In this document: one piece after another, positions 2 to 38,561 of the stretch
How the letters are laid out: each line of letters begins with the position of its first letter
Position numbering within the stretch: position 1 is the stretch's first letter
Source: a virus
Length of the DNA: 42,152 bases
Reading direction: 5' to 3' (one strand)
IMG/VR virus record: IMGVR_UViG_3300030329_001651
Location: 1 to 42,152 of that record
Program-made: the position numbers and the translations under genes
Notes under the pieces: model-generated
What the model was told of the DNA's origin: nothing
The model's database searches: none
The model's input: the letters and a program-made list of their open reading frames with translations, nothing else

Positions 2-1168
2 GTTATTGGATATAATGCTATGTCAGGTAGTTTAGGTACTACTACAGACCATTGTACTGCGAATCAAAATGTATTAATTGGTGTTAAAGCAGGATATGTG
101 AATTTGTCAGGTAATCACAATGTAGGGATTGGAGATGAAGCATTATATAACTTGACCACAGGAGATGATAATATTGCAATAGGCAGTAGCGCATTAAATA
201 CTGAAGATACAGGAAGCAAGTCAATAGCGATTGGCTATGAAGCTTTAAAAGCACAGGATTATGATGGAGATTCAGGTAATATAGGTATTGGTTATCAAGC
301 AGGTCTATCTAATACAAGCGGAATTGGCAATGTATATACGGGTCTTTATGCGGGTAGATATGTAACTACAGGAACAAGAAATATATTTATAGGTAGAGGT
401 GCAGGTCAAGGTGTAGTAGGAAATAAATTAACAGGCAGTTCTAACGTTGCAATCGGAGATTATGCAGGCAGTGCTTTACAAGCAGGTGCGGCTCAAAATC
501 ATTTTATAGGAGATGGTGCAGGTCAAAGTGTTACAACAGGTTGGCAAAACTTTGCTATTGGTCGCCATTCTTTAGATGCTGAAGTCGCAGGAAATAGAAG
601 CGTTGCAATCGGCAATGCAGCATTAACAAATGCTACACAAGGAACTAATACTCAAGTTGAAAATACAGCTATTGGATATGGAGCAGGAGATACTATTACA
701 TCAGGAATTAATTGTACTTTTATTGGTGGAAGTTCAGATGGTATAGCAGATGGAAATAATCAAATTGCAATCGGACAGGGTTCGGCTTGTGCAACTGCAA
801 ATACAGCTATGATTGGAAATAGCAGTATAACTGATGTATATATGGGAGATAATGGAAGTACTTGGAGTACAACAAGTGATGGAAGATTGAAAGAAAATAT
901 TAAGGATTGGAACAAAGGATTAGATGAAATTAATAAATTGAGAATTGTACAATATAATTTTAAAAAAGACAATCCATTTAAATATAATAGTAATAAATTA
1001 AGGCAAGGCGTTATTGCACAAGAAGCATTAGATGCAATACCTGAAATGATAACAGAAAATGATAATGGTTGGTTATCAGCAAATAATGAGCCTATGATAT
1101 GGGCATTAGTAAATGCAGTACAAGAATTATCTAAAGAAGTTGATGAATTAAAAAGGAGATTGAAATGA
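2..1168 (+). CDS. Tail fibre/spike C-terminal part with S74 chaperone domain (5'-truncated)
   Basis: Receptor-binding fibre or spike, cut by the left edge of the window. The frame is open to base 2 and the first in-frame residues (VIGYNAM) already fit the repeat, so the ATG at 20 is probably internal. Residues up to about 280 are roughly a dozen degenerate repeats of the form N-x-A-I-G-x-x-A-L/A-G, the pattern of trimeric beta-roll (YadA-head-like) stalks. The last ~100 residues, starting at SDGRLKENI, are a Peptidase_S74 intramolecular chaperone. In that family the domain drives trimerisation and then cuts itself off before a conserved Ser-Asp, here the SD of that motif. The C-terminus is a heptad-like helix, also typical. 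Stop overlaps the next start by 4 nt. Confidence 0.88.
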   Translation, partial: VIGYNAMSGSLGTTTDHCTANQNVLIGVKAGYVNLSGNHNVGIGDEALYNLTTGDDNIAIGSSALNTEDTGSKSIAIGYEALKAQDYDGDSGNIGIGYQAGLSNTSGIGNVYTGLYAGRYVTTGTRNIFIGRGAGQGVVGNKLTGSSNVAIGDYAGSALQAGAAQNHFIGDGAGQSVTTGWQNFAIGRHSLDAEVAGNRSVAIGNAALTNATQGTNTQVENTAIGYGAGDTITSGINCTFIGGSSDGIADGNNQIAIGQGSACATANTAMIGNSSITDVYMGDNGSTWSTTSDGRLKENIKDWNKGLDEINKLRIVQYNFKKDNPFKYNSNKLRQGVIAQEALDAIPEMITENDNGWLSANNEPMIWALVNAVQELSKEVDELKRRLK

Positions 1169-7427: not shown

Positions 7428-8963
7428 ATGTCTGATATTCTAGGAGTAACTGGTAGTAATTATACCAATGTCGACAAGGATGCCAGAACGGGTAGTGATT
7501 CTTCGCTTAATACTGGAGCGTTACGAAGAAAGTATAATTTCGGTAACATGGTTTCAGAATTAAACTTAGCACAAGATCCGTTCTTTCGATTCTTAAGTAA
7601 AGTGGCTAAAAAGCCAACAGATGATCCTGAATTTAAATTCACTGAAAGAAGATCATCTTACACAAAACGTTATGCATATATGGCTGCATTTGATGCAAGT
7701 GGTGGAGTAGCACCCGCTACTCAATCTGATACTGCTCATACTGCAACTGCAAACTCAAGTGTGTTTTCATTTAAAATGTTTACAGATTATAATAGTAATG
7801 GTAATCTACAAAACATTTATGGTCAAACATTAAAATATGCAGCTGGATCAACAGGTACTCAACCTACATTTTTCGTTCCAGGTCAAATAGTAAAAATGGC
7901 TACTGGAACTACAAGTGGTACTCCAACTGGATATGAACTTTGGAAAATAAATAGCGTAGATTTAGCTACTTCTAATTATGCAATAATTAATTGTACTTGT
8001 TTGAAATCTGAAGGTACTAATGCTGAGTTTATGGATCCTAATGTAGATGGAGTTTTAGGTACTGGAGCTATAGGAAATGAAACTAAAGCTAAATCACAAG
8101 AGGACTTAGAGCCATATAAATGCTATGTAGTTGGAACTGCATTTGGAGCTGGTACTGGATATCCTGAAACATGGCAAGATCAACCTTTTAGTACAGGAAC
8201 AGGTCAAACTCAAATCTTCAAAACATCAGCAGTGATGAATAATACTGATAGAGCAACAGTTCTTAAGTATGAAGGTAATGAGTGGGCTCGTATCTGGAAA
8301 GAAAAGTTGATTGAGCATAAATGGGATATTGAGCAAGCTATGTTGTTTAGTAATTTAAATGCAACAGGACGTACTTCTGAAGGCGCTGTTAATTTTATTA
8401 GTCAATATGGTAATGTATTTGATCTTACTTTAGCTACCAAAACACAAGATGATTTCTTGGATGATATGTCAGCTTTATTAGATCCTAGATACAACAATGC
8501 TTCTTCAACTGTATTCTTCTGTTCTACAGCAGTATACAACTGGTTGCATAAAATGTCTGGATACTTTGCTAATAATGTTGGTTCTGTTCAGCCATTTACA
8601 GGTGGTTCAGTATCTACAACTGCAGGTCAAGTATCATCACATAATGCTGGTAGGGTTGATATGGCATTATCAGGTAAGAAAAAAGTATTTGGTGTTGATG
8701 TTACTACTATTTCAACAGTATATGGTGATATGAATGTTGTACGTAATGTTCATCTTGATGGCACAGATGTTAAAATCTTAGCTATTAATATGAAGCATTG
8801 TTCATATAGACCATTAGTTGGTAATGGTATTAATAGAGATACATCAGTCTACGTAGGTGTGCAAACACTTGAGAACTCTGGGGTCGACAGACGAGTAGAT
8901 CAAATCTTAACAGAAGCGGGAATGGAATGGTCTTGTCCAGAAACTCACGCTATCTGGTCATAA
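7428..8963 (+). CDS. Major capsid protein
   Basis: 511-aa protein that should build the icosahedral shell. It follows scaffold, has a strong AAGGAG site 7 nt before the ATG, and is placed and sized like HK97-fold capsid proteins of P22-like and related podoviruses. Visible parts: an N-terminal arm with SELNLAQDPFFRFLSKVAKKP, a Gly/Thr/Asn-rich central region (about 105-265) that looks like a surface insertion, helical EWARIWKEKLIEHKWDIEQA (about 286-305, spine-helix-like), and the C-terminal P-domain-like end with VYVGVQTLENSGVDRRVDQI. I cannot assign the exact capsid family by eye. Confidence 0.85.
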   Translation: MSDILGVTGSNYTNVDKDARTGSDSSLNTGALRRKYNFGNMVSELNLAQDPFFRFLSKVAKKPTDDPEFKFTERRSSYTKRYAYMAAFDASGGVAPATQSDTAHTATANSSVFSFKMFTDYNSNGNLQNIYGQTLKYAAGSTGTQPTFFVPGQIVKMATGTTSGTPTGYELWKINSVDLATSNYAIINCTCLKSEGTNAEFMDPNVDGVLGTGAIGNETKAKSQEDLEPYKCYVVGTAFGAGTGYPETWQDQPFSTGTGQTQIFKTSAVMNNTDRATVLKYEGNEWARIWKEKLIEHKWDIEQAMLFSNLNATGRTSEGAVNFISQYGNVFDLTLATKTQDDFLDDMSALLDPRYNNASSTVFFCSTAVYNWLHKMSGYFANNVGSVQPFTGGSVSTTAGQVSSHNAGRVDMALSGKKKVFGVDVTTISTVYGDMNVVRNVHLDGTDVKILAINMKHCSYRPLVGNGINRDTSVYVGVQTLENSGVDRRVDQILTEAGMEWSCPETHAIWS

Positions 8964-22160: not shown

Positions 22161-23987
22161 ATGGGAAATTCAGACGCATTACAAGCATTATCAATACTTA
22201 CAAACGCATTAAGCAAAGCTCATAGTGTAAATATAGCATCCGAAGAAAGACGATTGGATAGAGAATATCAATCTGATAAATTAGATGAATCTAGGGAATA
22301 TAGATCTAAGGAATTAGCTGAATCTAGAGAGTATGAATTGAAAAAATTAAATGAACTTAGAGCTTATAATGAATCTTTAACAGAAAAGCAGAATGAATAT
22401 GATATAAAGAAATTATTGCTGAATGAAGCATTTTCACAATCATTAGACTGGTCTGGGAAATTAGAAGGTGTAAATACTAGATATATGGAGTCTGTAGGTA
22501 CTGCTCCAAACATTATAACTGAAGATGCAAAAAAAGTAATAACTGCATCATATCAAGGTCCTTATAATAATATAAAGAATATTTCAGATTTTTATGTAAA
22601 CAAAGTAAATGCTACTCGGTCAGCAGTTAGAGCTACTGAAAAAGAACTAAGCGAGCTTGTAAATTCTGCTGCTCAATTTTATAATGCTGAGACTGTTAAA
22701 CATATGAATTTAAATATAGCAGATGATATATTAGATGAATTTGAATTTGGAGCTATTGAAGATAAATTTATTTTAGGAAATAGATTAAAAGGAATAGATG
22801 ATAAAGCTTCTAGTGCTATAATGAAAAAGTTATATTATGCTACTGATTCTTCTGAAAGAGTTAGATTGGCTAAAGAGGCTGCGGATCAAGAGGCAAATGA
22901 GTTAAAAGCTGCTGCATCTGATCCTTTATTTGTATTGTCTAAAGGATTTGATGAGGGAGAAGAATTAGTTAAAGCATTGAAAAAAGGAAGAGTTAAAGAT
23001 AGTGATATTAAAAATATAAGGCAGATATTTGCATTAGGTAGTGCTTCTAGTACATACGAAGCTTTATTAGGCAATCCCATGGGAGGATATGATAGCGCCA
23101 TGGATTATATGACATCATTGATGGAAAATAAAACTATTCCTCTTGCATATGCAAATAGGTTTATGGAATTTGTAAAGAAAATGGATAGAGCAAATGCATT
23201 AGAAAATCCAGCCTTAGGATTATTAGAGCAACTAAATGAAGATATAAAATATATGAAAGATAAGGATCCAAAAGAGGCAATAACTAGATTAGAAGGATTG
23301 ACTGCTAATTTAGATGCTGAAGCTCAGGCAGATTATCAATCTATATTAGCAAATATGCTAAATACTGAATGGGGGACTACAGAAGCAGAATATTTTAAAG
23401 CATTAGAAGAGTTAATGAATCCAGATCCAGTTAAATTACAAGAAGATATTAAGGAGATAGAATCGAACTCTAAAAAAGAATCAATAAAAGTGCTTGACGA
23501 AATGATGAGCAATAATTTTGGATTAAATACAAGCGATGATATAGATACTTCAATTCCAAAAATGAAAGAATTGGTTAATAGTAATTCTAATAAAGCTAAA
23601 AAGATCCTTAAAAGGATTATAGATGAAGGCATTCATGAGGTATATGTATCTCCTGATAGATCTGATTATAGTTATAAATATGTAAAAGATTGGAAGCGCT
23701 TTGATATGAAAACCGAAGAAATCAAAAGAATGGATAACTTAATTTCATTAGCTAAAACATCTGAATTAAATAAAGTAGATAGAGAAGATAAGAAAAGGTT
23801 AGATTTTATCTTCAATAAGATTTCAGAATCAATACCTGAAGCTAATATAAGTATGAAATTAGGCAGAAGAGTTGATTGGAGTGAAAAAGAAATAGATGAA
23901 TGGCAAAATATGTCTTTGGAAGAAAAGAAAGCATATGGTAATTTTACATCATGGTTAAACGATAAATATAAAGATTATTTAGGATAA
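22161..23987 (+). CDS. Coiled-coil internal virion protein C
   Basis: 608-aa, almost fully helical and highly charged protein. Residues about 20-90 are a strong coiled coil with repeating (S/D)REY-x-(S/L)-K-x-L units (EERRLDREYQSDKLDESREY). No membrane segment. It stands between the glycine-rich ejection proteins and the giant protein, so it may be a core or channel component like the internal virion proteins of T7-type phages. AAGGATAG precedes ATG. Confidence 0.65.
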   Translation: MGNSDALQALSILTNALSKAHSVNIASEERRLDREYQSDKLDESREYRSKELAESREYELKKLNELRAYNESLTEKQNEYDIKKLLLNEAFSQSLDWSGKLEGVNTRYMESVGTAPNIITEDAKKVITASYQGPYNNIKNISDFYVNKVNATRSAVRATEKELSELVNSAAQFYNAETVKHMNLNIADDILDEFEFGAIEDKFILGNRLKGIDDKASSAIMKKLYYATDSSERVRLAKEAADQEANELKAAASDPLFVLSKGFDEGEELVKALKKGRVKDSDIKNIRQIFALGSASSTYEALLGNPMGGYDSAMDYMTSLMENKTIPLAYANRFMEFVKKMDRANALENPALGLLEQLNEDIKYMKDKDPKEAITRLEGLTANLDAEAQADYQSILANMLNTEWGTTEAEYFKALEELMNPDPVKLQEDIKEIESNSKKESIKVLDEMMSNNFGLNTSDDIDTSIPKMKELVNSNSNKAKKILKRIIDEGIHEVYVSPDRSDYSYKYVKDWKRFDMKTEEIKRMDNLISLAKTSELNKVDREDKKRLDFIFNKISESIPEANISMKLGRRVDWSEKEIDEWQNMSLEEKKAYGNFTSWLNDKYKDYLG

Positions 23988-23990
23988 AGA

Positions 23991-26900
23991 ATGAGTGAAG
24001 ACATAAAAAGACAGTACCTAGAACTTTTAAGTAAAAATTCAAGAAAAGAACCTGTAGCTATTGATAGCACCTTTGATAGGTTTTCAGATATAGATTTGTA
24101 TGGTTCTTTGGAAGAAGAGGCTTCTAGTTTATGGGATAATTTAGGAGGAATCGGAGAATACTTTGGAAAAGGAATTGCTTCTGGAGTTACCTTAGGTGCT
24201 TCTGAATTTGTGCCAGGAATGGATATAACTTGGGATGAAATGGATTCTGGTGAAAAAGCAGGGTATATAGCTGGAGAAGGTTTGTCTATGCTTATTCCAT
24301 TTATGGCAGCAGGAAGGGGTCTTAGAGCTTTATCTACGCTTGCCAAGGGTGGGAAGGTACGTGCAGTTAAAGATACTGTTAAAATGGTTGATTCTGCATT
24401 TTTAAAAGGTAATTCTGAGCAAATAGCAAGAACAGTAAATAGAGCTGCTAAAAAACAAGGGATAAAACCTGGAGAAGTAATGTCAGGATTATCCTCTAAG
24501 GTTCAACAAAAATTAAAGAAAGATTTATTAGAAAAGCCATATTCTCAAGCTTTATTTGATCAAGCTGCTAAAGGCGTTGCAAAAGAGAATGGAAGAAAAG
24601 TATTGCAAGAAAGAACAGCAGCTAGCGTAAAACAAGCTGTAAATGACATGGGAATGCGTATAGGAAAGTCTGAAGCAGATAAAATGGCTAAAATATTTAC
24701 AGAAAATCTAAGTAAAGGGATAACTCACAACGATTCTGCTGATATGATAGCTAAGATAATAGGTGGTGCAGATCCAGGAGTATTTAAATCTATTTTTAGT
24801 AAATATGCTGGAAATGCTGCTAATACCTCTGCAATAATGATAGGTCATAATTTAATAAGAGATGCTATAGTGGCTAGGGCTAGAGGAACTGAATATTCTC
24901 CTGGGGCTTCTGTTGTAGGTGGTGCGCAAATGGGATTAATATTCCCTGCATTACAAGCTATACCTAATATTGCTTTTGGGGCAAAAGGTACTGGAACTTT
25001 ATTCAAGCAATCTACAGACCAGCAGTTTTGGTTACAAGGTGTCCCTTTAATGTTGAGGAATTTAAACAAAACAAATTATGAGAATATATATAAAACGCAT
25101 GGTATAAAGCCTTTAAGAGGTTTATTAAAAATGATGACTGAAGGTGGAAAGTTTAATGTTCATAATACTAGTAGACTTGGATCCTCTGCATATAAATTAA
25201 AAAGTGGTAAAATTGTAAATTCTCCATATCAAATAAAACTTGCTGCTGATACTATGAGCAAAGACGATGTTATAGGATTACTAAATACATATAGAAGAGA
25301 AATTAGTGCAAGCGCTAAAAAGCAATGGTTTAAAGATTATGCTTATGATTTCTTAGGTAGTATGCCTAGAATGGCTGTAGGAATTGCTACAATGGGCTCT
25401 GAATTAGTATCTGGCTGGACAGAAGGTAATTTAAGTGGAGAAGAACTAGCGGCTCATTTAATGTCATCTGCATTTATGACTAAAAGTCAAGGAGCTTGGG
25501 CTTCAAAGGGTAGATATAATTATTTAATGGATTTTAGCCCTCATCAAAAAGCTATGGACAGGATGGACTTAAATGGCGATGCCTTACATGAAATATTTAA
25601 CTTTAGAAGAGAAGGAGTTGAAGATTTAATAGCTGATTCATTTTATGATGGCGAAGTTGTTAAGCAAATAGAAGATGTGTTTGATTCTTATGATGTTAAA
25701 GGGGCTACTAAAGATCCAGATATCAATGCTTATGATGTTACTCAGCACTCTATTATAGATAAATTTCAAAAAATATATAATGAAATACAAGGGCATAAAA
25801 AAGGTATAAATTACTTAAGTGATAATATAGTAGACATAAAAAATAAGAACTTTAATAAAGCCGATTTAGATGGAATGACTGTAGCTTTAAAAAATATTAA
25901 ATTTGAAGATGGACTATCAGTAGCTGATATGACGTTAGATAGATTTAGAGCTAGAATATTTAAAAACTCCTCAGACTCTATTAAGAAGGCATATACTGAT
26001 GACTTGTTTATGGCATTAAAAAATATAGGGTTAGATATAACTCCAGTAGGAGATAGGGGTGGAGTTAAATTTCAAGTAGCTCCTGTAATTGGAAAGGATA
26101 TGGGCGTTCTTTCAGACTATATGAATTTAATAAATAGATTTTCTACAGAAAAAGGACAACTTGGATTAGTTGAAATTCTAAATAATAGAAGGCAAAATTA
26201 TAACGACTTTAGCGAAACTCAAAAATCTCAAATAAAAGATTTATTTGACACTCATATATCAGAGCTAAACAAAGTATTTAATTTAAATGGTGTTAATTAT
26301 GATATACATGATAATCCATATATAACATTAATGAAACAAGGCAATGAAGCTGAGTCAGTAGAGAGGCTTTATTCGGTATTAGATGGAACATCAAAAGAAA
26401 CAAGCGATCAAAATCTTACAGCTAATATCGTACAGTTATTCGGCAGAGGCAAAGGAGCAGGAGGTGGATTTCTACAAAATATAGATAGCTATAAATTTGA
26501 CTATAAGAATGTTGATAAGAAATCAGAGCAGGAAGCTAAAGAAGCTTTTCCAGAAGCCGAATTAAAAGAAAAATTAAGACCTATATTAGAACTTGCAAGA
26601 CTTGAACATACAGATCCTGTAGATCCAGATAGAGCTATGATACCTATAGATGTTGGATTAGCAAATACAGTTATAAATAATTTTGAAAATATCAAATCAT
26701 TTCTACCAAGTAGATATAGAGAAGATTTTAATACACTTGGTGTTAGTCGTATTAGGGCTGATTATTGGGCTAATGAGGGAATAGATGCAAGAGTAGTATC
26801 TAGTATGAAAGCTTTACAAGATTCAGGCCTTGGCGATTATAAGAATGGTAAGATGGAAGTGCCTAATAGAGAAGCTATAATGTATATGGGAAAAGAAATG

Positions 26901-29900
26901 GTAGATAGTAAAGTAATTTCCCAAAATGAGCTAGTTAGAATAGCAAATAGAGCTGATGAAGTGTATAAGAAAATTGGGAGCGAAAGACTCTATCAATATA
27001 AAGTTGCATTACTCCCTGGAGAAGAAGCTAGGGGCTTCAAATCTCCTGATATAAGGGATTTTAATACAATATGGTCTTTATTCAAACAGGATGATTTAAA
27101 TAAATTCATAGAAAATTCCGATACAATAATAAGTCAATTACAAAATATAGACAGTGTTAATCAAGACAATGTGAATTTCATATTAGATAGATTAATGGGA
27201 ATAGCCTCAGGCAATATAAATAATACTGATGTAATAGATGCCTTAACAGTTGTAAGGGATAGAGTGAGTAAAGCTATTAAAAGTGAGCAATACACAAAAG
27301 ATTATAAAAAACTATTAACTGAAATAGACTCAATAAGGAAAAAGCTTGCTACTTTAAATGTTCCAGAGATAGATGGATATATTAATGAAAAAAGTGGTGA
27401 TTTAAAGTCAATGTCTGACCTGATTAATGATATTTTCGGTCGTGAACAAAAGATAAAAAATGATGCTGCAAAAGAGATATTTAATTTAGTAGCTCTAAGA
27501 AAAAGTAATGATTTGAGCGCTGAAGAAGTTCTGATGATCAAAGATAGAGCAGAACAAAATATAAGAGCTATATTAAAAATGCAAGTAGATGAATCTATAC
27601 CTTTAGAAGAATTAATATCTGAAATAAATTCTACTAGAGATTGGGCATCATTTAAAGATGTTATAAAAAATATCCATGAAAGTATAGAAGTTAATTTAGC
27701 TGCTAAAGATAGAGCTGAATTTTTGAGAACCGATTCTGATGCCTTTAGTAACTTAGCTCATAATAAAGATATACACTTTTCTTCAGATACATTCCAGAGT
27801 ATAGCAGGTAGATATAATTTACTTGATGTTGATGGTAGGAATATAGATCCTGAAATAGTTAAATATATAGCTAAAAATAAGAATAGAAAAACAATCTTAT
27901 CAGGTTTAAAAACTCAAGTTAGAAATAAGCTTAAAGAGCTAAAATTAAGTAGAACTGAAATGATAGATAAGATGGCTGATTGGGAAAGGTCAGCTCCATT
28001 ATTCTTAAATACTATGCTAAGAAAGAAGCCTAAGCATACATTAAGGCTTATAGCTCATGGTAAGAAATTAATTGTTGAGTCAGATTCTCATAAAATATCT
28101 TCTGATGATATAGTTAGTCAATGGTTCGATGACAAAGGATTTGATGTAAGCTATGTTCAAAATACTATGCTAAAAGTAAATGCTAAGAATAAGGTAGTTA
28201 CTGATAGTGTTGAAAATTTTTCAGGAGAAGATGGTGCAGATGCTATAAATCAATTAATTAACAAAGATATAGCCTTTGTTCCTAAAACAGGTATAGAGTT
28301 ATTTAGCAAATATGCAGATGGAAGTATAGCTGACAAAGATTTAAAAGTTTTAATTGATAAGTATAAAAGTGAGATCATTCCTAATGGAGAAGATGCTAAT
28401 TATATAAGACTAACTCCTGGAAATGCTGTATTGTTTCATGGTACACCAGAAAATAAAGCTAAATTATTTAAGAGTTTTAAGAAATTCTATAATGACAACT
28501 CTAAAAAAGGCTTTGATGATATAACAATAAAAGATAAGGATGGTCACAAGAGAGATATATCTGGAGAATTATTAAAGAAGCAATTTGAAACTACATTTGA
28601 GGATATATATGATAAGGATATAACTAGTAAAAAAGAAGATGAGTTAAAGATTATTACATTGTTTGCATCTGAAAAGCCAAGAGAATTTGCTAAATGGCTT
28701 GCAGCTAAGCATATTGGGGACTCAGATGTTATGAGATTAACAGAAGCTAATATGGTTAAAAGAGACTGGCTTGTTGATGGTGGTACCACAATAAGGCCTC
28801 ATAAAACAATTATAAAAGCTTTCGGCAAGAATTATCACGACCCAGATGTACAAGCATTTGCTAATGAACTTGTAAATAATAATTTTGAAATGGATGTAAC
28901 TGTATTTGCAGATGAAGCAGATGGTGCTGGTACTAATATTGTAGAAAGGTTTCAAGAGCAAATTAATGATAGAAAACATGTTACTGGAGATGCAAAGGCA
29001 AACAAATTATCTAAATTTGTAGCGAAACAACAACTAGACGATACTAGTCCTCAAAATATAAAAAGAGAATTACCATCATTGAGGAATGCCTCTACCGATG
29101 GAATAAAATATGCGAGTCATGCTTTAGCTAAATTTAATATGGCTTTAAAGGGTGGAGATTTGGACAAAATTGGTGGGTTTAAGACTGTTTTAGCTCAATT
29201 AGGTGAGAATAGCTTGCTTGGTAAAGGCTATCTTGTTTATGATCCTTTAATAGCTAATAAAATGGCTCCTGGAGTTCATATAGCATTGGGAGAAAGTGCT
29301 GCTAAAACATTTGGCTTTAATGTTAATGCATTAAATGTCCCAGGTAAAAATTGGTTTGATGCTCTTCCAAATGCCACATCTGATAATAATGTTAAATTTA
29401 GTATAGAAAATATGGGAATTGGATTTTATGCTAAGCCAACCAAAGGAGTAAGTCTTTCTAATTCTATGACACATCTTGAGAGCCATAAATATACTCAAGA
29501 TTTTATAAAGATAGCAGGTATAGATAAAGCTATAAGTATTGTAGATGCTACTAATAGAACAAGAGTTGATTCTGAGAATGAATTATTGTCATATTTAAAT
29601 CAAAAAAATAAGGATGAGGGATTTACTCAGAAATTAGGCTTAACAAGTGAATTGATAGAAGATGGGATGAATATTAATAATATAGCTATAAAATCTGATA
29701 TAGATAGAGCCTTGAGAAATGAATATTTTACTGCACTCTCAGGATTATCTACAAGACATGGCAGAGATTATACGATAGTTCCTGATGCTGGTAGCGATTT
29801 AATTATGCCTGAAATAGTAAATTTAAAATCTAAAGTTCTAGGCAAGGAAGAAACTGTCTGGAGAGCTAGTAAAACATATGGGGAGATAGCTCCTGATGCA

Positions 29901-32897
29901 AATGGCATGTCGGAAACTTTAGACAATATAAACAATACAGCTTTTATTATTAGATATAAAGGTTTGGACTTTACATCTTATATTAATGATATATTCCAGC
30001 CTCTTGTTGAAAAAACTTCTAAGAACAAAGATTGGGACTTAGGAGAAGCTGGCAAGGATATAGATATAAGTTGGACTAGGGATAAGAAAGCTTTATACAA
30101 TCACGTACAAAATATCATGAAGCCTATTTATGCTGAATTTAAAAAGATGGATACTAATGGCAACAAGCTTTCAATGCATGATATGTATAGAATGTTAGAA
30201 GGCCAAGAAGTTAGAATGAATGGTAAGAGATTAAAACTTACAAGATCATCTTTAAAAGCTGTAAAAGATCATAACATAGCTCTAGGTGCTTCAGGACTTG
30301 CTATTCCTCTAAAAATACATGATAAAGCTGTACATAGAATTGCTAAAGTTCATAACAATACAGGCCTTGTAAGAATAAATCATTATGATGAAAGAGTTGT
30401 ACATCAAAGAGATAATGATGGAGACCATTTTTATACTCATTTTCAATTAACTCCTAATATGTTAAAAGCTCATTCTAATGAGATGACTATAAATAAAGAT
30501 TTTAGAATGTACGAAAAAGAGCTTCCTGATATAAATTTATTTGGAATTGATTATGACAATATATCTTCATCAAAAGTAAATGCAGACCCTGGAGCAGTTG
30601 GAGTTTCTAAATATTTAGGACATTTAGATAACCAAAAAAGAACTATAGGTATAACTATAGGGGATAGACAGGCTTATGATATACTTAATAAGCTGAATCT
30701 TACATTTAAAAAAGGCATTATAGACAAAGATGATGGTCTTTTTATTAAAAACATTATGTCAGACAATATTAACAATATGACAGATGACAAAGGTAAAATT
30801 GTAGTTAGGGAAGGAGAAATGGGTCAGAATGGTGTAGATATACATGGAGGCACTTCTCAGCAATATAAATCTCCTGATATAAAAACCATAAAAAGATTTG
30901 ATATAAGACCAGAAGGATCTGATTTTAAATATTCAAATGGCGATAAAGTAGAAAAATTAGATAAGCCATTGTTTAATATAGATCCTAATAGCATGATAGA
31001 AAGAGATATGGCTGATCATCTTATTATGTCTCTAAAGAAGATAAATGTTATAAATAGCGATGTATACGATCAGGGTACAAAAAGAGCTCCCGAACCTAAT
31101 GAAATACAAGATGCTTATTTTAATTTAAGAAGATTATTTGAAGATCCAACTCAGTTTATTATAGATGGGCTTATAAATAGATACTCTCAGCTAGATGGCA
31201 AGAATAAGAAAGCTGCTTTTAATGAGTTGATAAGATATTTTTATAAGGACGAGAATTGGAGTATTAACGAGCAGTTAAGTCTTGGAAAATTTAAGAAAGA
31301 ACTACTCAAGGGATCTGAAGCATTTCAGGTCTTGCCTTATAAAAAATTAAGATTTGAAGGATTCTCTATTGATGCAAAATTAGATTATGCATCTAAAGAA
31401 AAGAAAATAAAAGATATGTTTTATAGAATGCCTCAAGGTAAGATACTATATGACGTAGTAAGAAAGAATGTCTTCAAAGAAAAGGATAGTAATTTTGCAG
31501 AAGCTGACTATAAATATCATAATAAAGTAGGTAGCGTGGCAAGACAAGCTTTAAATAATATTAATTATCTAAAAGCTATAGGAACTAGTGTTGATGAGAT
31601 AGTAAGAGATTATAAGTTTCTTGATCTTAAAGGCAATACAATAAGCTATGAAAATGTTGATCCAGTAAAGATTAAAGAAGGAGTTACTATGGGTGCTATA
31701 AGAAGCTCTTATCATAGGTTATACTCTAGATTGTCTAGAAATTTAGAGTATTATAGTGATTCCAACTTCCATACTTCTATGGACAAAGTCAATATGAGAG
31801 ACATACAGCATCAAATGAAAAATATAGAATCAGCCTTGGATATTATGGATAAACAATGGGCTAATAAAGTAATAGCTGAAGGTGCACAAAGTGCCAATGT
31901 AGTTGATAAGTTCAAAACTGGGTGGCACAAACCTAAAGATAAAGTATTTGTATTGTCCTTTAAGGGTAGTAAGGATAAAATAAATAAGTTTCAAGAGAAA
32001 AAAGAAGGAGATGTATCTTTATCTGATTTCCATCAAGTAGGATGGGTAGATCCTAAAGGCAAAAGAAATGGATATAAAAGATTAAAAGGCTTTACATATA
32101 TAGAAGTAAAGAATCCTATGATGCATGAGTCTGTTTCTGCTACTGATGGTATGTATGCTAAACACTTATCTGATATGAGTGCAAGGCTAGAAGTAGAAAG
32201 GGTAGGATCTGATGCAGATCAGCTTGATTTTCTGTCTAGCGTAAGATTTACTAGGAATATCGTTAGAGATGGCTTTAGTAGGGCTATAAGGGATACAAGG
32301 GGAGAACTCTCCTTAAAAGACCAAATATGGGCCTTAACAGACGCTAGGGAAAGATTTTACATAGGAGATTACTTTAAAAAGAATTTAATGGATGATGATG
32401 GTAATTTATTATTAGATGTAAAATCAGAAAGAGATGGTTATAAGTTTTTAGCTCAATATCTAATTAAACCTGATGCATTAATGAGTAAATACGTATCTAC
32501 TACAGTAGACAATAAAAATGTACAGCTACCTGCCTATAAAATAAATAAGAGATTAGTTAAATCTACATTTAAATGGTTGAATGAGAACGGTATGAGAGAT
32601 ATTACTAAGGAGATTGTACAAGAATGGGAAGGAAGAGTAAATGGTACTATATCAGAATCTTATGATTTTACTAGTAGGTATTTTGATAATAGAAGTCCTG
32701 GATTCAATTATGATAGCTTTGGTAAAGGAGCTAATTTAATAAAAAGTATTTCAGGTAGTGGCTTTGCTAGTCCGTTTTATAAATTTCACATACAAAATAG
32801 ACCTTATAATATTAATAAAAAAGAGGTTGGAAAGACTTTTGATGGATCAAAGCAATATAGAGCTACTTTTAAAAGAAGAGAAAGAGAAGACTGTTAA
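23991..32897 (+). CDS. Giant ejection protein with candidate RNA polymerase active site (virion RNAP candidate)
   Basis: 2968 aa, over a fifth of the window. The N-terminus (about 60-120, GKGIASGVTLGASEFVPGMD and SMLIPFMAAGRGLRALSTLA) is glycine-rich and membrane-active looking, as in internal head proteins. At 2141-2145 is DNDGD, followed by HFYTHFQLT; the pattern DxDGD-x-F/M-x-x-H-x-x-LT lines up with the beta-prime catalytic loop (DFDGDQMAVHVPLT in bacterial RNAP). Just before it, HRIAKVHNNTGLVRINHYD fits the lead-in strand. At 1745-1772 KGYLVYDPLIANK...GESAAK could be the partner barrel with two lysines. After the motif comes AVGVSKYLGHLDNQKRTIG. Remainder is helical and unassigned. The role is inferred; an EF-hand-type loop is the main alternative. 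No other polymerase is in the window. Confidence 0.75.
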   Translation: MSEDIKRQYLELLSKNSRKEPVAIDSTFDRFSDIDLYGSLEEEASSLWDNLGGIGEYFGKGIASGVTLGASEFVPGMDITWDEMDSGEKAGYIAGEGLSMLIPFMAAGRGLRALSTLAKGGKVRAVKDTVKMVDSAFLKGNSEQIARTVNRAAKKQGIKPGEVMSGLSSKVQQKLKKDLLEKPYSQALFDQAAKGVAKENGRKVLQERTAASVKQAVNDMGMRIGKSEADKMAKIFTENLSKGITHNDSADMIAKIIGGADPGVFKSIFSKYAGNAANTSAIMIGHNLIRDAIVARARGTEYSPGASVVGGAQMGLIFPALQAIPNIAFGAKGTGTLFKQSTDQQFWLQGVPLMLRNLNKTNYENIYKTHGIKPLRGLLKMMTEGGKFNVHNTSRLGSSAYKLKSGKIVNSPYQIKLAADTMSKDDVIGLLNTYRREISASAKKQWFKDYAYDFLGSMPRMAVGIATMGSELVSGWTEGNLSGEELAAHLMSSAFMTKSQGAWASKGRYNYLMDFSPHQKAMDRMDLNGDALHEIFNFRREGVEDLIADSFYDGEVVKQIEDVFDSYDVKGATKDPDINAYDVTQHSIIDKFQKIYNEIQGHKKGINYLSDNIVDIKNKNFNKADLDGMTVALKNIKFEDGLSVADMTLDRFRARIFKNSSDSIKKAYTDDLFMALKNIGLDITPVGDRGGVKFQVAPVIGKDMGVLSDYMNLINRFSTEKGQLGLVEILNNRRQNYNDFSETQKSQIKDLFDTHISELNKVFNLNGVNYDIHDNPYITLMKQGNEAESVERLYSVLDGTSKETSDQNLTANIVQLFGRGKGAGGGFLQNIDSYKFDYKNVDKKSEQEAKEAFPEAELKEKLRPILELARLEHTDPVDPDRAMIPIDVGLANTVINNFENIKSFLPSRYREDFNTLGVSRIRADYWANEGIDARVVSSMKALQDSGLGDYKNGKMEVPNREAIMYMGKEMVDSKVISQNELVRIANRADEVYKKIGSERLYQYKVALLPGEEARGFKSPDIRDFNTIWSLFKQDDLNKFIENSDTIISQLQNIDSVNQDNVNFILDRLMGIASGNINNTDVIDALTVVRDRVSKAIKSEQYTKDYKKLLTEIDSIRKKLATLNVPEIDGYINEKSGDLKSMSDLINDIFGREQKIKNDAAKEIFNLVALRKSNDLSAEEVLMIKDRAEQNIRAILKMQVDESIPLEELISEINSTRDWASFKDVIKNIHESIEVNLAAKDRAEFLRTDSDAFSNLAHNKDIHFSSDTFQSIAGRYNLLDVDGRNIDPEIVKYIAKNKNRKTILSGLKTQVRNKLKELKLSRTEMIDKMADWERSAPLFLNTMLRKKPKHTLRLIAHGKKLIVESDSHKISSDDIVSQWFDDKGFDVSYVQNTMLKVNAKNKVVTDSVENFSGEDGADAINQLINKDIAFVPKTGIELFSKYADGSIADKDLKVLIDKYKSEIIPNGEDANYIRLTPGNAVLFHGTPENKAKLFKSFKKFYNDNSKKGFDDITIKDKDGHKRDISGELLKKQFETTFEDIYDKDITSKKEDELKIITLFASEKPREFAKWLAAKHIGDSDVMRLTEANMVKRDWLVDGGTTIRPHKTIIKAFGKNYHDPDVQAFANELVNNNFEMDVTVFADEADGAGTNIVERFQEQINDRKHVTGDAKANKLSKFVAKQQLDDTSPQNIKRELPSLRNASTDGIKYASHALAKFNMALKGGDLDKIGGFKTVLAQLGENSLLGKGYLVYDPLIANKMAPGVHIALGESAAKTFGFNVNALNVPGKNWFDALPNATSDNNVKFSIENMGIGFYAKPTKGVSLSNSMTHLESHKYTQDFIKIAGIDKAISIVDATNRTRVDSENELLSYLNQKNKDEGFTQKLGLTSELIEDGMNINNIAIKSDIDRALRNEYFTALSGLSTRHGRDYTIVPDAGSDLIMPEIVNLKSKVLGKEETVWRASKTYGEIAPDANGMSETLDNINNTAFIIRYKGLDFTSYINDIFQPLVEKTSKNKDWDLGEAGKDIDISWTRDKKALYNHVQNIMKPIYAEFKKMDTNGNKLSMHDMYRMLEGQEVRMNGKRLKLTRSSLKAVKDHNIALGASGLAIPLKIHDKAVHRIAKVHNNTGLVRINHYDERVVHQRDNDGDHFYTHFQLTPNMLKAHSNEMTINKDFRMYEKELPDINLFGIDYDNISSSKVNADPGAVGVSKYLGHLDNQKRTIGITIGDRQAYDILNKLNLTFKKGIIDKDDGLFIKNIMSDNINNMTDDKGKIVVREGEMGQNGVDIHGGTSQQYKSPDIKTIKRFDIRPEGSDFKYSNGDKVEKLDKPLFNIDPNSMIERDMADHLIMSLKKINVINSDVYDQGTKRAPEPNEIQDAYFNLRRLFEDPTQFIIDGLINRYSQLDGKNKKAAFNELIRYFYKDENWSINEQLSLGKFKKELLKGSEAFQVLPYKKLRFEGFSIDAKLDYASKEKKIKDMFYRMPQGKILYDVVRKNVFKEKDSNFAEADYKYHNKVGSVARQALNNINYLKAIGTSVDEIVRDYKFLDLKGNTISYENVDPVKIKEGVTMGAIRSSYHRLYSRLSRNLEYYSDSNFHTSMDKVNMRDIQHQMKNIESALDIMDKQWANKVIAEGAQSANVVDKFKTGWHKPKDKVFVLSFKGSKDKINKFQEKKEGDVSLSDFHQVGWVDPKGKRNGYKRLKGFTYIEVKNPMMHESVSATDGMYAKHLSDMSARLEVERVGSDADQLDFLSSVRFTRNIVRDGFSRAIRDTRGELSLKDQIWALTDARERFYIGDYFKKNLMDDDGNLLLDVKSERDGYKFLAQYLIKPDALMSKYVSTTVDNKNVQLPAYKINKRLVKSTFKWLNENGMRDITKEIVQEWEGRVNGTISESYDFTSRYFDNRSPGFNYDSFGKGANLIKSISGSGFASPFYKFHIQNRPYNINKKEVGKTFDGSKQYRATFKRREREDC

Positions 32898-35590
32898 TGA
32901 ATAATACTATATGTCAACCCAGTTCTCCTGAAGTAGAAGAACAAAAAAGAAAGATGGAAAATCTTGCTCATAAATGGGCTAATAATTATGAACATATATC
33001 AAATAGATATGAAGGTCAATATAATTCTATAGATAGAGCTATTAAAATTATGGCTGAAGAATGGCTTCAAATTCCATATGAAGAAAATTATCCTTTAAGT
33101 GATTTTCAATGGAGGAAATTGGACGCTATATCAGAGGACTATAATACAAGGCTTAGAAATAATTGGTCTGCATCTATAGTTCCAGAGGGTACGTCTATGA
33201 AAGACCCTGTTGGTAGGAAATTTCATCTTACTATGACAGACGCTCATATCTTTGAAAGAGATCAAATTGGAACAAATCATCAATTTACAGTAGAAACATC
33301 TACTTATTTAAGACAGGCATATATTGATGAAGGGTTTAAAACTGGATTATTTGGTATAAAAACTGTTAATGATATTAGAAGATGGCAAAATGAAATATTA
33401 AAAACTGATGATGAAGGTATAAAAAATGAATATCAAGATAAAATAGCTGATATTATTAATAGTGAAGATGGCAAAATATTAAGAGACTTTAGGCATTTAA
33501 ATTCATTATCTGACAAAGACTTCAATCAAGTCAGAAGATATCAAAATTACTTAGATCCAACATCAGATAGAGAAATAAGGGTGGATGTAAATAAAAATAC
33601 TATATTAGCAGCTGAAAATGCAAGAAAACATTTAAAGCATATGGGTAACGAGGTTGCTACTAGTGGTTTAGATAGAATGCTTCAACTAATTAATACTAAG
33701 TATGATTTTATCGGTGGAGATAAAGAATCTTCTTCATATAAGAATCTTGTTAAAAGTTTAAATGAGGCTAAGGATAGGATAAAAAATAATGATGGTGGAT
33801 ATATGCCAACAATGTTTATGGAATCATTGGTTGACTTAAAAGTTAATTTTGAAGATTTTAGAGCTAATACAGACAAGCATGCTGTAAATGAACATTTAGA
33901 TGTAATGACCGATGTTCTTACATCTATAAATAAAGAAAGACTACCTAATCAATTAAGAGCAAGGAATGAGCATTTAAATAATGCATATAATGAAGACCCG
34001 ATATATGTAATAGATCAATATGGTAAAGAAGTAATTGCTTTCAACAAATTGGCAGTATTAGAAAATGGATTATTAGTTGCTATGAAAGACTTGCCTTCTA
34101 AAAAGACTGAATTTACAAAAGGATTAGCTAGATGGATACAAGAGCAACACTATGTAGCGACAAAGGGACTGTCAGATAGACCAGATTCTTTTAATGAGAT
34201 AAATAAATACTTAAGTGCAGCTCAAACTATAAGCACTATGGCATTGAATCCTACTGGAGCTATAAAAAATACTACTAGTTTAGTTTATTATTTAGCTGAA
34301 AAAGGGAGATCTGACTTATCTAGAGCTAGAAAATTGTTAAAATATGATGACGATGTTAGAAAAGCTTTAGATATTATAGAAAAAGAACAAGGATTTTTAT
34401 TCCCAGATGCATCTGTTGAAATGTTTGCAGAGGGATTAATTACTACTGATGAGGGGATATCTAAATCAGATATTGTCTATGATCCAGAAACAGGGAAGAT
34501 AACAGTAAAAGGCCAGGGATTGTTTGATTATGGTAATACAATGAATTGGACTATAGACAAATTATTAATAGCTCATAAAATAACAGAAAACAAAGTAAGG
34601 GAATATCTATTTAAAACTTCTTTTGCTTTAAAATACAAGCAATTAAAAGACAATCCTCACTATATGAGAGAAAATGATGGAGATTTTGTATTTGAAGAGG
34701 CGAAGGCTAGGAAGTTTGCTAAGAATCATGCAAATAAAACTATAAATTTACATGCATATGACTATGCTATATATGCTAAAGCTCCTGCTTTGAGAGGCAT
34801 GATGCATAAAGTAGATGAAATGGGTAATAAAAGTATATATGCAGACAATAAATTTATTGCAGGATTGAAGGGAGTAGCTCAGCAACAAGGGATGAGCTTG
34901 ATGCATTATCCAATGTCTTTAGTTCAAACTCATATAAGAAAACTTCAAGGCCTTAGTGTTGAGGCTAGGGCTGCAAAAATGAAGGATCTAACAAGAGGAT
35001 TTAAAGATTTAAATGAAATGCATTTTTTCTTAAGATATGCTGCTGCATTTGGATTAGTTCAATTTGCATCTGTAGCTTTAAATTTAAATTTTAATAATAT
35101 AATAGATTTTGATATGGTTAATAGGATAGGAGATATAAATAATAATCTAACATCGGATGACGATGATGAAGAACTCTTATTTGGTCTTATAAGCTCTTTT
35201 ACAGGTGCAGGTGCTAGTAAAGCTAATTTCGCATTGCAAATGGCAGGTGTTATCGATGTAGGTGATAGTGAAATGCAAAGAATATTATTTGGAAATGTTG
35301 ATTATCAAGATCCTGATATGGAAAGATTAAAATATTATCAATATTCTACATTTGCAGGTAATGTTGCAAATAAATATTGGCCATCATTTCAAAATGGCGA
35401 TGGATTTGGTCAGTTTAGGCATCTATTTAAATCTTATCCTGAAGATTGGACTAAGAAATATAATAAAAAGATGCTTAATAAGCTTGGTGTTAAGAAAGCC
35501 AAGAAAGCCCCTAGATATGCTAGTCTGACTCCAGAGCAAAGATTAAGGAAACAGGCTTTAAAGTCCCTAGAATCATTGTATAGATCTTAA
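32897..35590 (+). CDS. Large ejection-cassette protein, partner of the giant protein
   Basis: 897 aa, starting in the stop of the giant gene (TAATG), so translation is coupled and similar amounts of both are expected. Mostly helical. A segment near 445-465 (TMALNPTGAIKNTTSLVYYL) and another near 690-715 with many Met/His (GMSLMHYPMSLVQTHIRKLQ) resemble membrane-associated parts; hydrophobic RYAAAFGLVQFASVALNLNF is near 715-735. The C-terminus is strongly basic (KKMLNKLGVKKAKKAPR). In other phages comparable sequence is the C-terminal end of a single giant protein, so this may be a split-off domain of the same machine. Last gene of the plus operon. Confidence 0.65.
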   Translation: MNNTICQPSSPEVEEQKRKMENLAHKWANNYEHISNRYEGQYNSIDRAIKIMAEEWLQIPYEENYPLSDFQWRKLDAISEDYNTRLRNNWSASIVPEGTSMKDPVGRKFHLTMTDAHIFERDQIGTNHQFTVETSTYLRQAYIDEGFKTGLFGIKTVNDIRRWQNEILKTDDEGIKNEYQDKIADIINSEDGKILRDFRHLNSLSDKDFNQVRRYQNYLDPTSDREIRVDVNKNTILAAENARKHLKHMGNEVATSGLDRMLQLINTKYDFIGGDKESSSYKNLVKSLNEAKDRIKNNDGGYMPTMFMESLVDLKVNFEDFRANTDKHAVNEHLDVMTDVLTSINKERLPNQLRARNEHLNNAYNEDPIYVIDQYGKEVIAFNKLAVLENGLLVAMKDLPSKKTEFTKGLARWIQEQHYVATKGLSDRPDSFNEINKYLSAAQTISTMALNPTGAIKNTTSLVYYLAEKGRSDLSRARKLLKYDDDVRKALDIIEKEQGFLFPDASVEMFAEGLITTDEGISKSDIVYDPETGKITVKGQGLFDYGNTMNWTIDKLLIAHKITENKVREYLFKTSFALKYKQLKDNPHYMRENDGDFVFEEAKARKFAKNHANKTINLHAYDYAIYAKAPALRGMMHKVDEMGNKSIYADNKFIAGLKGVAQQQGMSLMHYPMSLVQTHIRKLQGLSVEARAAKMKDLTRGFKDLNEMHFFLRYAAAFGLVQFASVALNLNFNNIIDFDMVNRIGDINNNLTSDDDDEELLFGLISSFTGAGASKANFALQMAGVIDVGDSEMQRILFGNVDYQDPDMERLKYYQYSTFAGNVANKYWPSFQNGDGFGQFRHLFKSYPEDWTKKYNKKMLNKLGVKKAKKAPRYASLTPEQRLRKQALKSLESLYRS

Positions 35591-37778: not shown

Positions 37779-38561
37779 TTATGCCACAGCTTTACATAAT
37801 CCATCTACTATAGATGCATTCTGATTATAGCTAGCTATTGTAGGTTTATCTTTGTGCCACAATATATCTGTTGCAGCATTTAATAATCCCCAACCACTGG
37901 TTTCTGAATGATATTGTCCATGAGGATCAGAGAATTTATCTACAATATTTCCCCATATACCAGAAGGTATATCTGAAAGATAATCATGTCTTATTGTTCC
38001 TAATCCTTTCATAGTAATTCTTAAGTCATCTAATTTTCTTAGATTTCCTATCATATTATTTAAACTACCTTCAGAAGTAGAATTTACAATATTAATAACT
38101 TTATCTAGATTTTCTTCCCAACCTTCACTATTAGGTTCGTGTTTAAATCTAAAAGTATTAAAGAATTTCTTACTCATCATTCCATTTGTACATATTAATC
38201 TATATAATAACATTGAAAATCCAAATGATTTACTACCATCATAACTATTCCAAAACTGAATACCTAATGCTAGATCATCACCTTGTTTTATATTTCCAAT
38301 TACATTATTTGATTTTAAAGAATATATATATCTTCTACCATCAAAGAATGTTTTATCTTGCTCAAATTGTATATTTGAAGCATTAGCTACTTGATCTGCA
38401 GCTTCTTTTACTTTGCTATTAGATAACAACATATATTTACTACCTACAACTCCTGCTTCCTTCCAGTCATTTTCTTCTCTACGCTGGACAGAATAAGCAG
38501 AAGATTCTATACCTTGATAATTTAAAGGTACTTTGCGTATTTCTGCGTATGGGTTCTTCAT
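37779..38561 (-). CDS. DUF932 domain protein
   Basis: 260-aa protein of the phage/plasmid DUF932 family. The typical core is visible: GDDLALGIQFWNSYDGSKSF (about 94-113), followed by MLLYRLICTNGMM (about 117-129), which is the SxDGS...R-x-x-C-x-NGM pattern. Some relatives lie beside ssDNA recombination and replication genes, as here. Exact function is not established. Start is in an ATGA overlap with the micro-gene upstream, with AAAGG before it; it is followed by the structured spacer. Confidence 0.8.
   Translation of the reverse strand: MKNPYAEIRKVPLNYQGIESSAYSVQRREENDWKEAGVVGSKYMLLSNSKVKEAADQVANASNIQFEQDKTFFDGRRYIYSLKSNNVIGNIKQGDDLALGIQFWNSYDGSKSFGFSMLLYRLICTNGMMSKKFFNTFRFKHEPNSEGWEENLDKVINIVNSTSEGSLNNMIGNLRKLDDLRITMKGLGTIRHDYLSDIPSGIWGNIVDKFSDPHGQYHSETSGWGLLNAATDILWHKDKPTIASYNQNASIVDGLCKAVA

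Follow-up and report, generated by a model that had tools for sequence, protein, structure and literature searches.

Few of the two-barrel RNA polymerases of phages have known structures, namely phi14:2 gp66, P23-45 gp96 and gp64 with their relatives, and the multisubunit enzymes of jumbo phages, and these proteins bear on the origin of both the cellular RNA polymerases and the RNA-silencing polymerases. The phi14:2 enzyme, which we take to be the 2180-aa product of gp077 in GenBank KC821624, is encoded among genes whose large products are annotated, from mass spectrometry, as structural. The RNA polymerases of the crAss group are, according to PMC7886860, extremely divergent. Likewise, many two-barrel families lack significant similarity to one another beyond the region of the DxDxD motif, according to PMC10770324, which also reports that gp96 was discovered through a DxDxD search among virion proteins and that fusions of virion RNA polymerases to large proteins were found in crAss-like and N4-related phages.

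We analysed a virus record of 42152 bases (the whole stretch is referred to as the window) that encodes a giant protein of 2968 aa within its late operon. A preliminary description had proposed an RNA polymerase active site in this protein, and the translation confirms the open reading frame, the DNDGD motif at residues 2141-2145 and the HFYTHFQLT that directly follows it; the segment singled out at 29223-30470 corresponds to residues 1745-2160. In our judgement the protein is very probably a DNA-dependent RNA polymerase with both barrels on a single chain, packaged in the virion of an uncultured phage whose tail is probably short. We infer its catalytic activity, its template and its role in early transcription, as well as the tail type of the phage and the injection and packaging of the protein, the last from the position of the gene and the fusion architecture of its product. 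The features concerned are as follows.

22161..23987, plus strand: upstream gene, 608 aa, fast-diverging, possibly part of an ejection block
23991..32897, plus strand: giant late-operon protein, 2968 aa, with a predicted two-barrel RNA polymerase core (open reading frame and translation)
23991..27290, plus strand: N-terminal region, residues 1-1100, helical in a low-confidence AlphaFold2 model, proposed ejection or packaging part
28278..31430, plus strand: RNA polymerase core as modelled, residues 1430-2480 (AlphaFold2 and fold matches)
29088..29405, plus strand: DPBB-B-like (beta-subunit-like) barrel, residues 1700-1805 approximately, with K1731, K1745 and K1772 (limits estimated from model strands)
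29745..30455, plus strand: DPBB-A-like (beta-prime-like) barrel with an insertion, residues 1919-2155 approximately (limits estimated from fold alignments)
30411..30425, plus strand: DNDGD motif, D2141, D2143 and D2145, proposed metal-binding site (present in 29 of 29 readable loci recruited without the motif)
30606..30695, plus strand: 30-residue helix, residues 2206-2235, in the putative bridge-helix position (DSSP)
32897..35590, plus strand: downstream gene, 897 aa, probable second ejection protein (homologues in relatives)

As judged from sequence, a DxDGD motif is weak evidence when taken alone, and it is the conservation of the motif that is significant. Of 5000 shuffled sequences with the composition of the giant protein, 577 contain D.DGD. 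A scan for a second RNA polymerase gene, made with DxDxD on ORFs predicted in the window and in six relatives, returned many scattered motifs, and a further RNA polymerase may be encoded. A tail-fibre or tail-spike-like ORF of the window (2-1168) also carries DYDGD, which looks like a chance occurrence.

Relatives of the giant protein were collected in several steps. A 60-aa query around the motif gave four IMG/VR relatives, profiles made from these extended the set to 34 contigs, and a profile that included divergent members added 11 contigs. A further profile that lacked the motif, covering only residues 1690-1785, recovered 31 loci in the viral collection, of which 27 were contigs already found with motif-bearing patterns and four were on new contigs. 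Counted over all scan listings, the family is represented on 49 IMG/VR contigs besides the window, some of them near-identical, and it is missed by the sequence libraries that we tried. Where the giant ORF is not cut by the end of the locus or contig it measures approximately 2970-3180 aa, and the family members share 20-29% identity overall with the protein of the window. No relative was confirmed by tblastn of the phages collection, by a whole-protein search or by one profile scan of the species-level genome collection. One divergent subgroup (L208-L217), mostly with DFDGD as in P23-45 gp96, includes a contig of 104 kb and might extend the family into further groups of phages.

Since several of the recruiting patterns contained the motif, the motif-free scan provides the fair test of its conservation. 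RDxDGD is located 400-480 aa downstream of the matched segment in 29 of 29 readable loci, the other two (L075 and L098) ending before the motif position, and the variable residue is N in every case except L103 (F) and L104 (M). Two of the four new contigs are readable, with DFDGD and DMDGD, and two are cut. In an alignment of 40 family sequences K1731, K1745 and K1772 are invariant, as are D1703, G1704, D1926, P2106, D2111, N2130, D2133, R2135, D2170, G2185, Q2279 and D2283; this alignment was extracted with a QRDxDGD filter, so that only positions outside the filter count as independent evidence. Between the first and the second aspartate these sequences have N in 28 cases and F in eight, with Y, M, W and G once each. 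In homologues recruited by the motif-free profile the three aspartates are conserved, as the preliminary description would have it.

The frequency of the pattern in shuffled sequence and its presence in the tail-fibre-like ORF could suggest that DNDGD is a chance motif or, alternatively, a calcium-binding loop, but we regard either as extremely improbable in view of the conservation recovered by the motif-free scan and of the RNA polymerase fold described below. The consensus order of the EF-hand is D-x-[DNS]-x-[DNS]-G. DNDGDH has glycine at the fourth rather than the sixth position of such a loop, and histidine at the sixth, and on these grounds, together with conservation and fold, the EF-hand reading was rejected.

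An AlphaFold2 model of residues 1430-2480, computed from 29 sequences, was obtained with a pLDDT of 81.9 and a pTM of 0.80. Only three matches were returned by Foldseek against the PDB at E <= 0.001, namely the phi14:2 virion RNA polymerase (6vr4, 4.0e-8, rank 1) and two entries of maize RDR2. VIA-align scored QDE-1 highest (Z 17.0, 468 residues, rmsd 5.5 A), followed by RDR2 (Z 16.9, 443 residues, rmsd 5.4 A), with 11-13% identity over the aligned residues, and the phage enzymes P74 gp62 (Z 12.2), gp64 (12.1), phi14:2 gp66 (11.7, over 659 residues) and P23-45 gp96 (10.8). Among the 50 VIA-align matches listed, the 18 with Z between 10.8 and 17.0 are all single-chain two-barrel RNA polymerases (QDE-1, RDR2, gp62, gp64, gp66 and gp96), and the other 32 are chains of multisubunit RNA polymerases with Z of 7.6 or less. 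A Foldseek search of BFVD gave 23 matches at E <= 0.001, eight of them from records named "uncultured phage cr...", which are crAss-like by name. The top two are unnamed proteins (E 4.6e-24 and 1.8e-21), so by predicted fold unnamed similar proteins appear to be present in public databases already. These comparisons uphold the RNA polymerase reading of the preliminary description, which had named crAss phi14:2 gp66 and the RNAi polymerases as the structures to search: the former ranks first in Foldseek and the latter head the VIA-align matches, and residues 1430-2480 are predicted to fold like the single-chain two-barrel enzymes.

Within the model, DNDGD occupies a loop (model positions 712-716) between a helix (702-708) and a strand (717-721), in agreement with the earlier placement of the motif in a barrel-type loop rather than an EF-hand. 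The core as modelled combines the single-chain two-barrel fold with a DxDxD motif in a loop of the second barrel. A first barrel had been proposed upstream, around K1745 to K1772, and the model does contain a strand-rich region at approximately residues 1700-1805 (strands 1705-1708, 1729-1736, 1742-1749, 1762-1767, 1771-1774 and 1800-1804) that includes the invariant lysines. In known two-barrel RNA polymerases the catalytic lysines are situated in the first barrel. K1731, K1745 and K1772 fall in the region expected for these residues, and their putative role in contacting the NTP or the RNA 3' end is suggested by that position. Many VIA-align rows for largest subunits begin at model positions 487-490, paired with residues 343-357 or thereabouts of the Pol II chain, near the start of the Pol II active-site region; DPBB-A thus probably extends from about residue 1919 through the DNDGD loop. 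It appears in the model to carry a long insertion ahead of the DNDGD strands and hence not to be compact, so that the "compact" double-psi beta-barrel of the preliminary description does not stand. DPBB-A is followed by a helix of 30 residues assigned by DSSP (model positions 777-806), and from this location residues 2206-2235 may represent the bridge helix.

It is conceivable that the core is that of a PolD-like DNA polymerase, within the two-barrel superfamily, or of an enzyme that copies RNA. RDR2 and QDE-1, which provide the best VIA-align fold matches, use RNA templates, and no family-A DNA polymerase, the only DNA polymerase family searched for, was found in any of nine records (G000-G008), whereas controls were matched in 10 of 14 genomes. 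On the other hand, DNA-dependent phage RNA polymerases (gp66, gp64 and gp96) are also among the fold matches, and the gene shares its strand with the virion genes among which it is located, the replication genes being on the other strand; we therefore consider such an activity improbable. PolD does not occur among the 50 VIA-align matches listed, an absence that carries no weight.

Sequence comparison connected the giant protein to no known RNA polymerase. Neither whole nor in pieces did it score above the cut-off of any Pfam, PHROG or NCBIfam model, the matches below the curated cut-off or with E > 0.001 being DUF1825, which was the strongest, and then THB, DUF740, phrog_29805, phrog_13681, phrog_38361 and an NCBIfam reductase model. 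DUF1825 matched residues 2030-2103 (30078-30299) with E 0.0007 on a 200-aa piece, at 19.9 bits against a cut-off of 25. Among PDB sequences the best phmmer E value was 0.72, and hmmsearch returned a single match, Pol III RPC1 (E 1), which does not cover the motif. With hhalign the probability was 0.10 against phi14:2 gp66 alone, 0.12 against the single P23-45 gp96 sequence and, against 75 gp66-type sequences, 0.16 for the full core and 0.03 for DPBB-A, as compared with 0.12 for an unrelated N-terminal control. A forced alignment with the gp66-type sequences brings IGYRIP...DFDIDKMY into register with SGLAIP...DNDGDHFY in a comparison that is not significant; the predicted fold leaves room for distant homology to the gp66 family. 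The T7-like RNA polymerase model PF00940 matched none of nine records, and none of the control genomes either. In literature searches none of the titles and opening lines of abstracts described the family; it may be listed in the supplementary survey of PMC10770324.

The N-terminal part of the giant protein is less well defined. Residues 1-1100 gave a mostly helical AlphaFold2 model with a pLDDT of 62.9 and a pTM of 0.50, and one hydrophobic segment is found in this region (residues 306-324). The model matched nothing in the PDB at E <= 0.001 and nothing in VIA-align at Z >= 8, and no known ejection protein was recovered in either fold search.

The giant gene is located after a tail-fibre gene on the late strand, which also encodes the terminase (phrog_38), the portal (phrog_156), further tail-fibre-like proteins and an SU10-like major capsid protein (7428-8963, PF17236, E 1.5e-18), whereas a DnaB/primase-like protein and an Erf-like annealing protein are encoded on the opposite strand. 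Similarity of the window portal to those of other phages is weak (22-26% identity to 17 records, with partial coverage), and some of these are annotated as P22-like; the phage probably has a short tail. A gene of approximately 870-1010 aa follows the giant gene wherever the contig of a relative continues, and its homology to the 897-aa gene of the window was checked in five relatives and found in all five (29-33% identity; in L121, 30% over 875 aa). The 608-aa product of the upstream gene belongs to no PHROG or Pfam family and is similar to the product of the upstream gene in L002 (E 1e-12) but not in L122 (E 0.10). In three relatives (G003, G005 and G007) repeats at the ends fit the view that the maps, of approximately 58, 56 and 52 kb, are complete. 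On the minus strand of the window, adjoining the primase-helicase gene, 37779-38561 encodes a homologue (63% identity) of a G007 gene product that contains a DUF932 domain (PF06067, E 1.6e-16).

We also examined these genomes for possible promoter motifs. Counting 12-mers in the window and in three relatives revealed one with five copies, in G007. With an EM motif search of the regions ahead of genes in four relatives the scores were 44.5, 47.7, 55.5 and 40.5, against 37.3-40.5, 39.8-41.2, 40.0-48.4 and 35.3-36.5 respectively in three shuffles, and gave a different motif in each relative, one of them resembling a ribosome site. An exact 16-base repeat at positions 4490 and 5259 of L120 (G005), 44-46 bases ahead of two rightward genes, is a possible promoter, although alone it is not significant.

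The giant protein diverges far faster than the head proteins. Between the window and G007 (L121-L123) identity is 84% for the terminase, 74% for the portal, 72% for the primase-helicase and 67% for the capsid, as against 25% for the giant protein and 30% for its downstream partner. In four other relatives the terminase, portal and capsid show 48-79% identity and the giant protein 23-25%. By this comparison the RNA polymerase and ejection block changes much more rapidly than the head genes do, with its putative active site fixed. Such loss of identity, in a relative with so similar a terminase, is what might be expected if the barrels had lost catalysis and survived as a structural relic within an ejection protein, but the retention of three lysines in 40 of 40 sequences and of three aspartates in every readable locus of the motif-free scan, at low overall identity, makes this highly unlikely.

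It could also be argued that the polymerase is made during infection to transcribe middle or late genes and is not injected, as in the case of gp64 of the Thermus phage P23-45, a non-virion RNA polymerase (PMC10770324). Fold similarity to gp64 and gp62 (Z around 12) is indeed as high as that to the virion enzymes gp66 and gp96. The chains of gp64 and gp62 in the PDB are, however, shorter than 600 residues, whereas the core studied here is embedded in a protein of about 3000 aa, with some 1400 helical residues ahead of it, and is encoded on the late strand beside a large conserved neighbour. We consider a non-injected enzyme unlikely, and the best reading is a new, fast-diverging family of fusion proteins that join a two-barrel RNA polymerase to a helical N-terminal region; the gene belongs to a late operon and its product is probably carried in the virion.

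If the protein is a packaged polymerase, it might act as follows. The catalytic core would comprise residues 1460-2480 or so, in which K1731, K1745 and K1772 of the first barrel would make contact with the NTP or with the 3' end of the RNA, and D2141, D2143 and D2145 of the second barrel would hold the catalytic magnesium, with the bridge-helix-like helix after them. The helical N-terminal 1400 residues, approximately, would be packed in the head with the 608-aa and 897-aa proteins and would form with them an entry path into the cell for the DNA and the polymerase. Once injected, the polymerase would transcribe the first genes without the RNA polymerase of the host.

Such an activity would account for a gene of about 9 kb, among the largest on the 52-58 kb maps of these phages, and predicts early transcription that is independent of the host; it would also mean that an RNA polymerase core of the cellular or RNAi type has become part of a DNA-delivery protein. 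As the core is scored closest to QDE-1 and RDR2 by VIA-align, with crAss gp66 first in Foldseek, the family may inform the origin of the eukaryotic RNA-silencing polymerases. On balance we favour the view that these proteins form a two-barrel RNA polymerase family not described before, which is part of the ejection machinery in uncultured phages with a P22-like portal, an SU10-like capsid and maps of 52-58 kb, that they represent a further lineage besides the crAss-like and P23-45-like phages, and that they couple genome entry to first transcription.

What appears to be new here is the family itself, the two-barrel virion RNA polymerase being already known as a kind. Of the described enzymes phi14:2 gp66 (6VR4) is similar in being a giant single chain with a DxDxD motif, encoded among genes for large virion proteins, and in its fold scores (rank 1 in Foldseek, Z 11.7 in VIA-align), but its motif is DFDID as opposed to DxDGD in the window family. 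The terminase of phi14:2 belongs to phrog_6681 (and weakly to phrog_2), its portal to phrog_6547 and its capsid to phrog_11589, whereas the window terminase matches phrog_38 and others but none of those matched by phi14:2, its portal phrog_156 and its capsid PF17236; the phi14:2 genome is 100 kb, compared with 52-58 kb for the three relatives of the window with end repeats. By its head genes the window phage does not appear to be crassviral, and with no significant profile similarity either, the view that it represents a lineage different from the crAss phages holds. QDE-1 and RDR2 show the highest VIA-align similarity to the core but are cellular enzymes of eukaryotic RNA silencing rather than phage proteins, and no sequence match to them was found. 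N4 vRNAP is of the T7-like type and differs in this respect from the window core, which matches two-barrel enzymes. In its biology N4 (Schitoviridae) is comparable, as its vRNAP, of approximately 3,500 residues, is ejected into the host along with two other ejection proteins (PMC12633501). P23-45 gp96 (Z 10.8) is likewise a two-barrel RNA polymerase fused to a giant virion protein, with a DFDGD motif of the form also seen in divergent members of the window family; in that case, according to PMC10770324, the polymerase forms the N-terminus of a tape measure protein with 5,002 residues, from a phage whose tail is very long, whereas in the window family the core is found in the C-terminal half of a protein of about 3000 aa.
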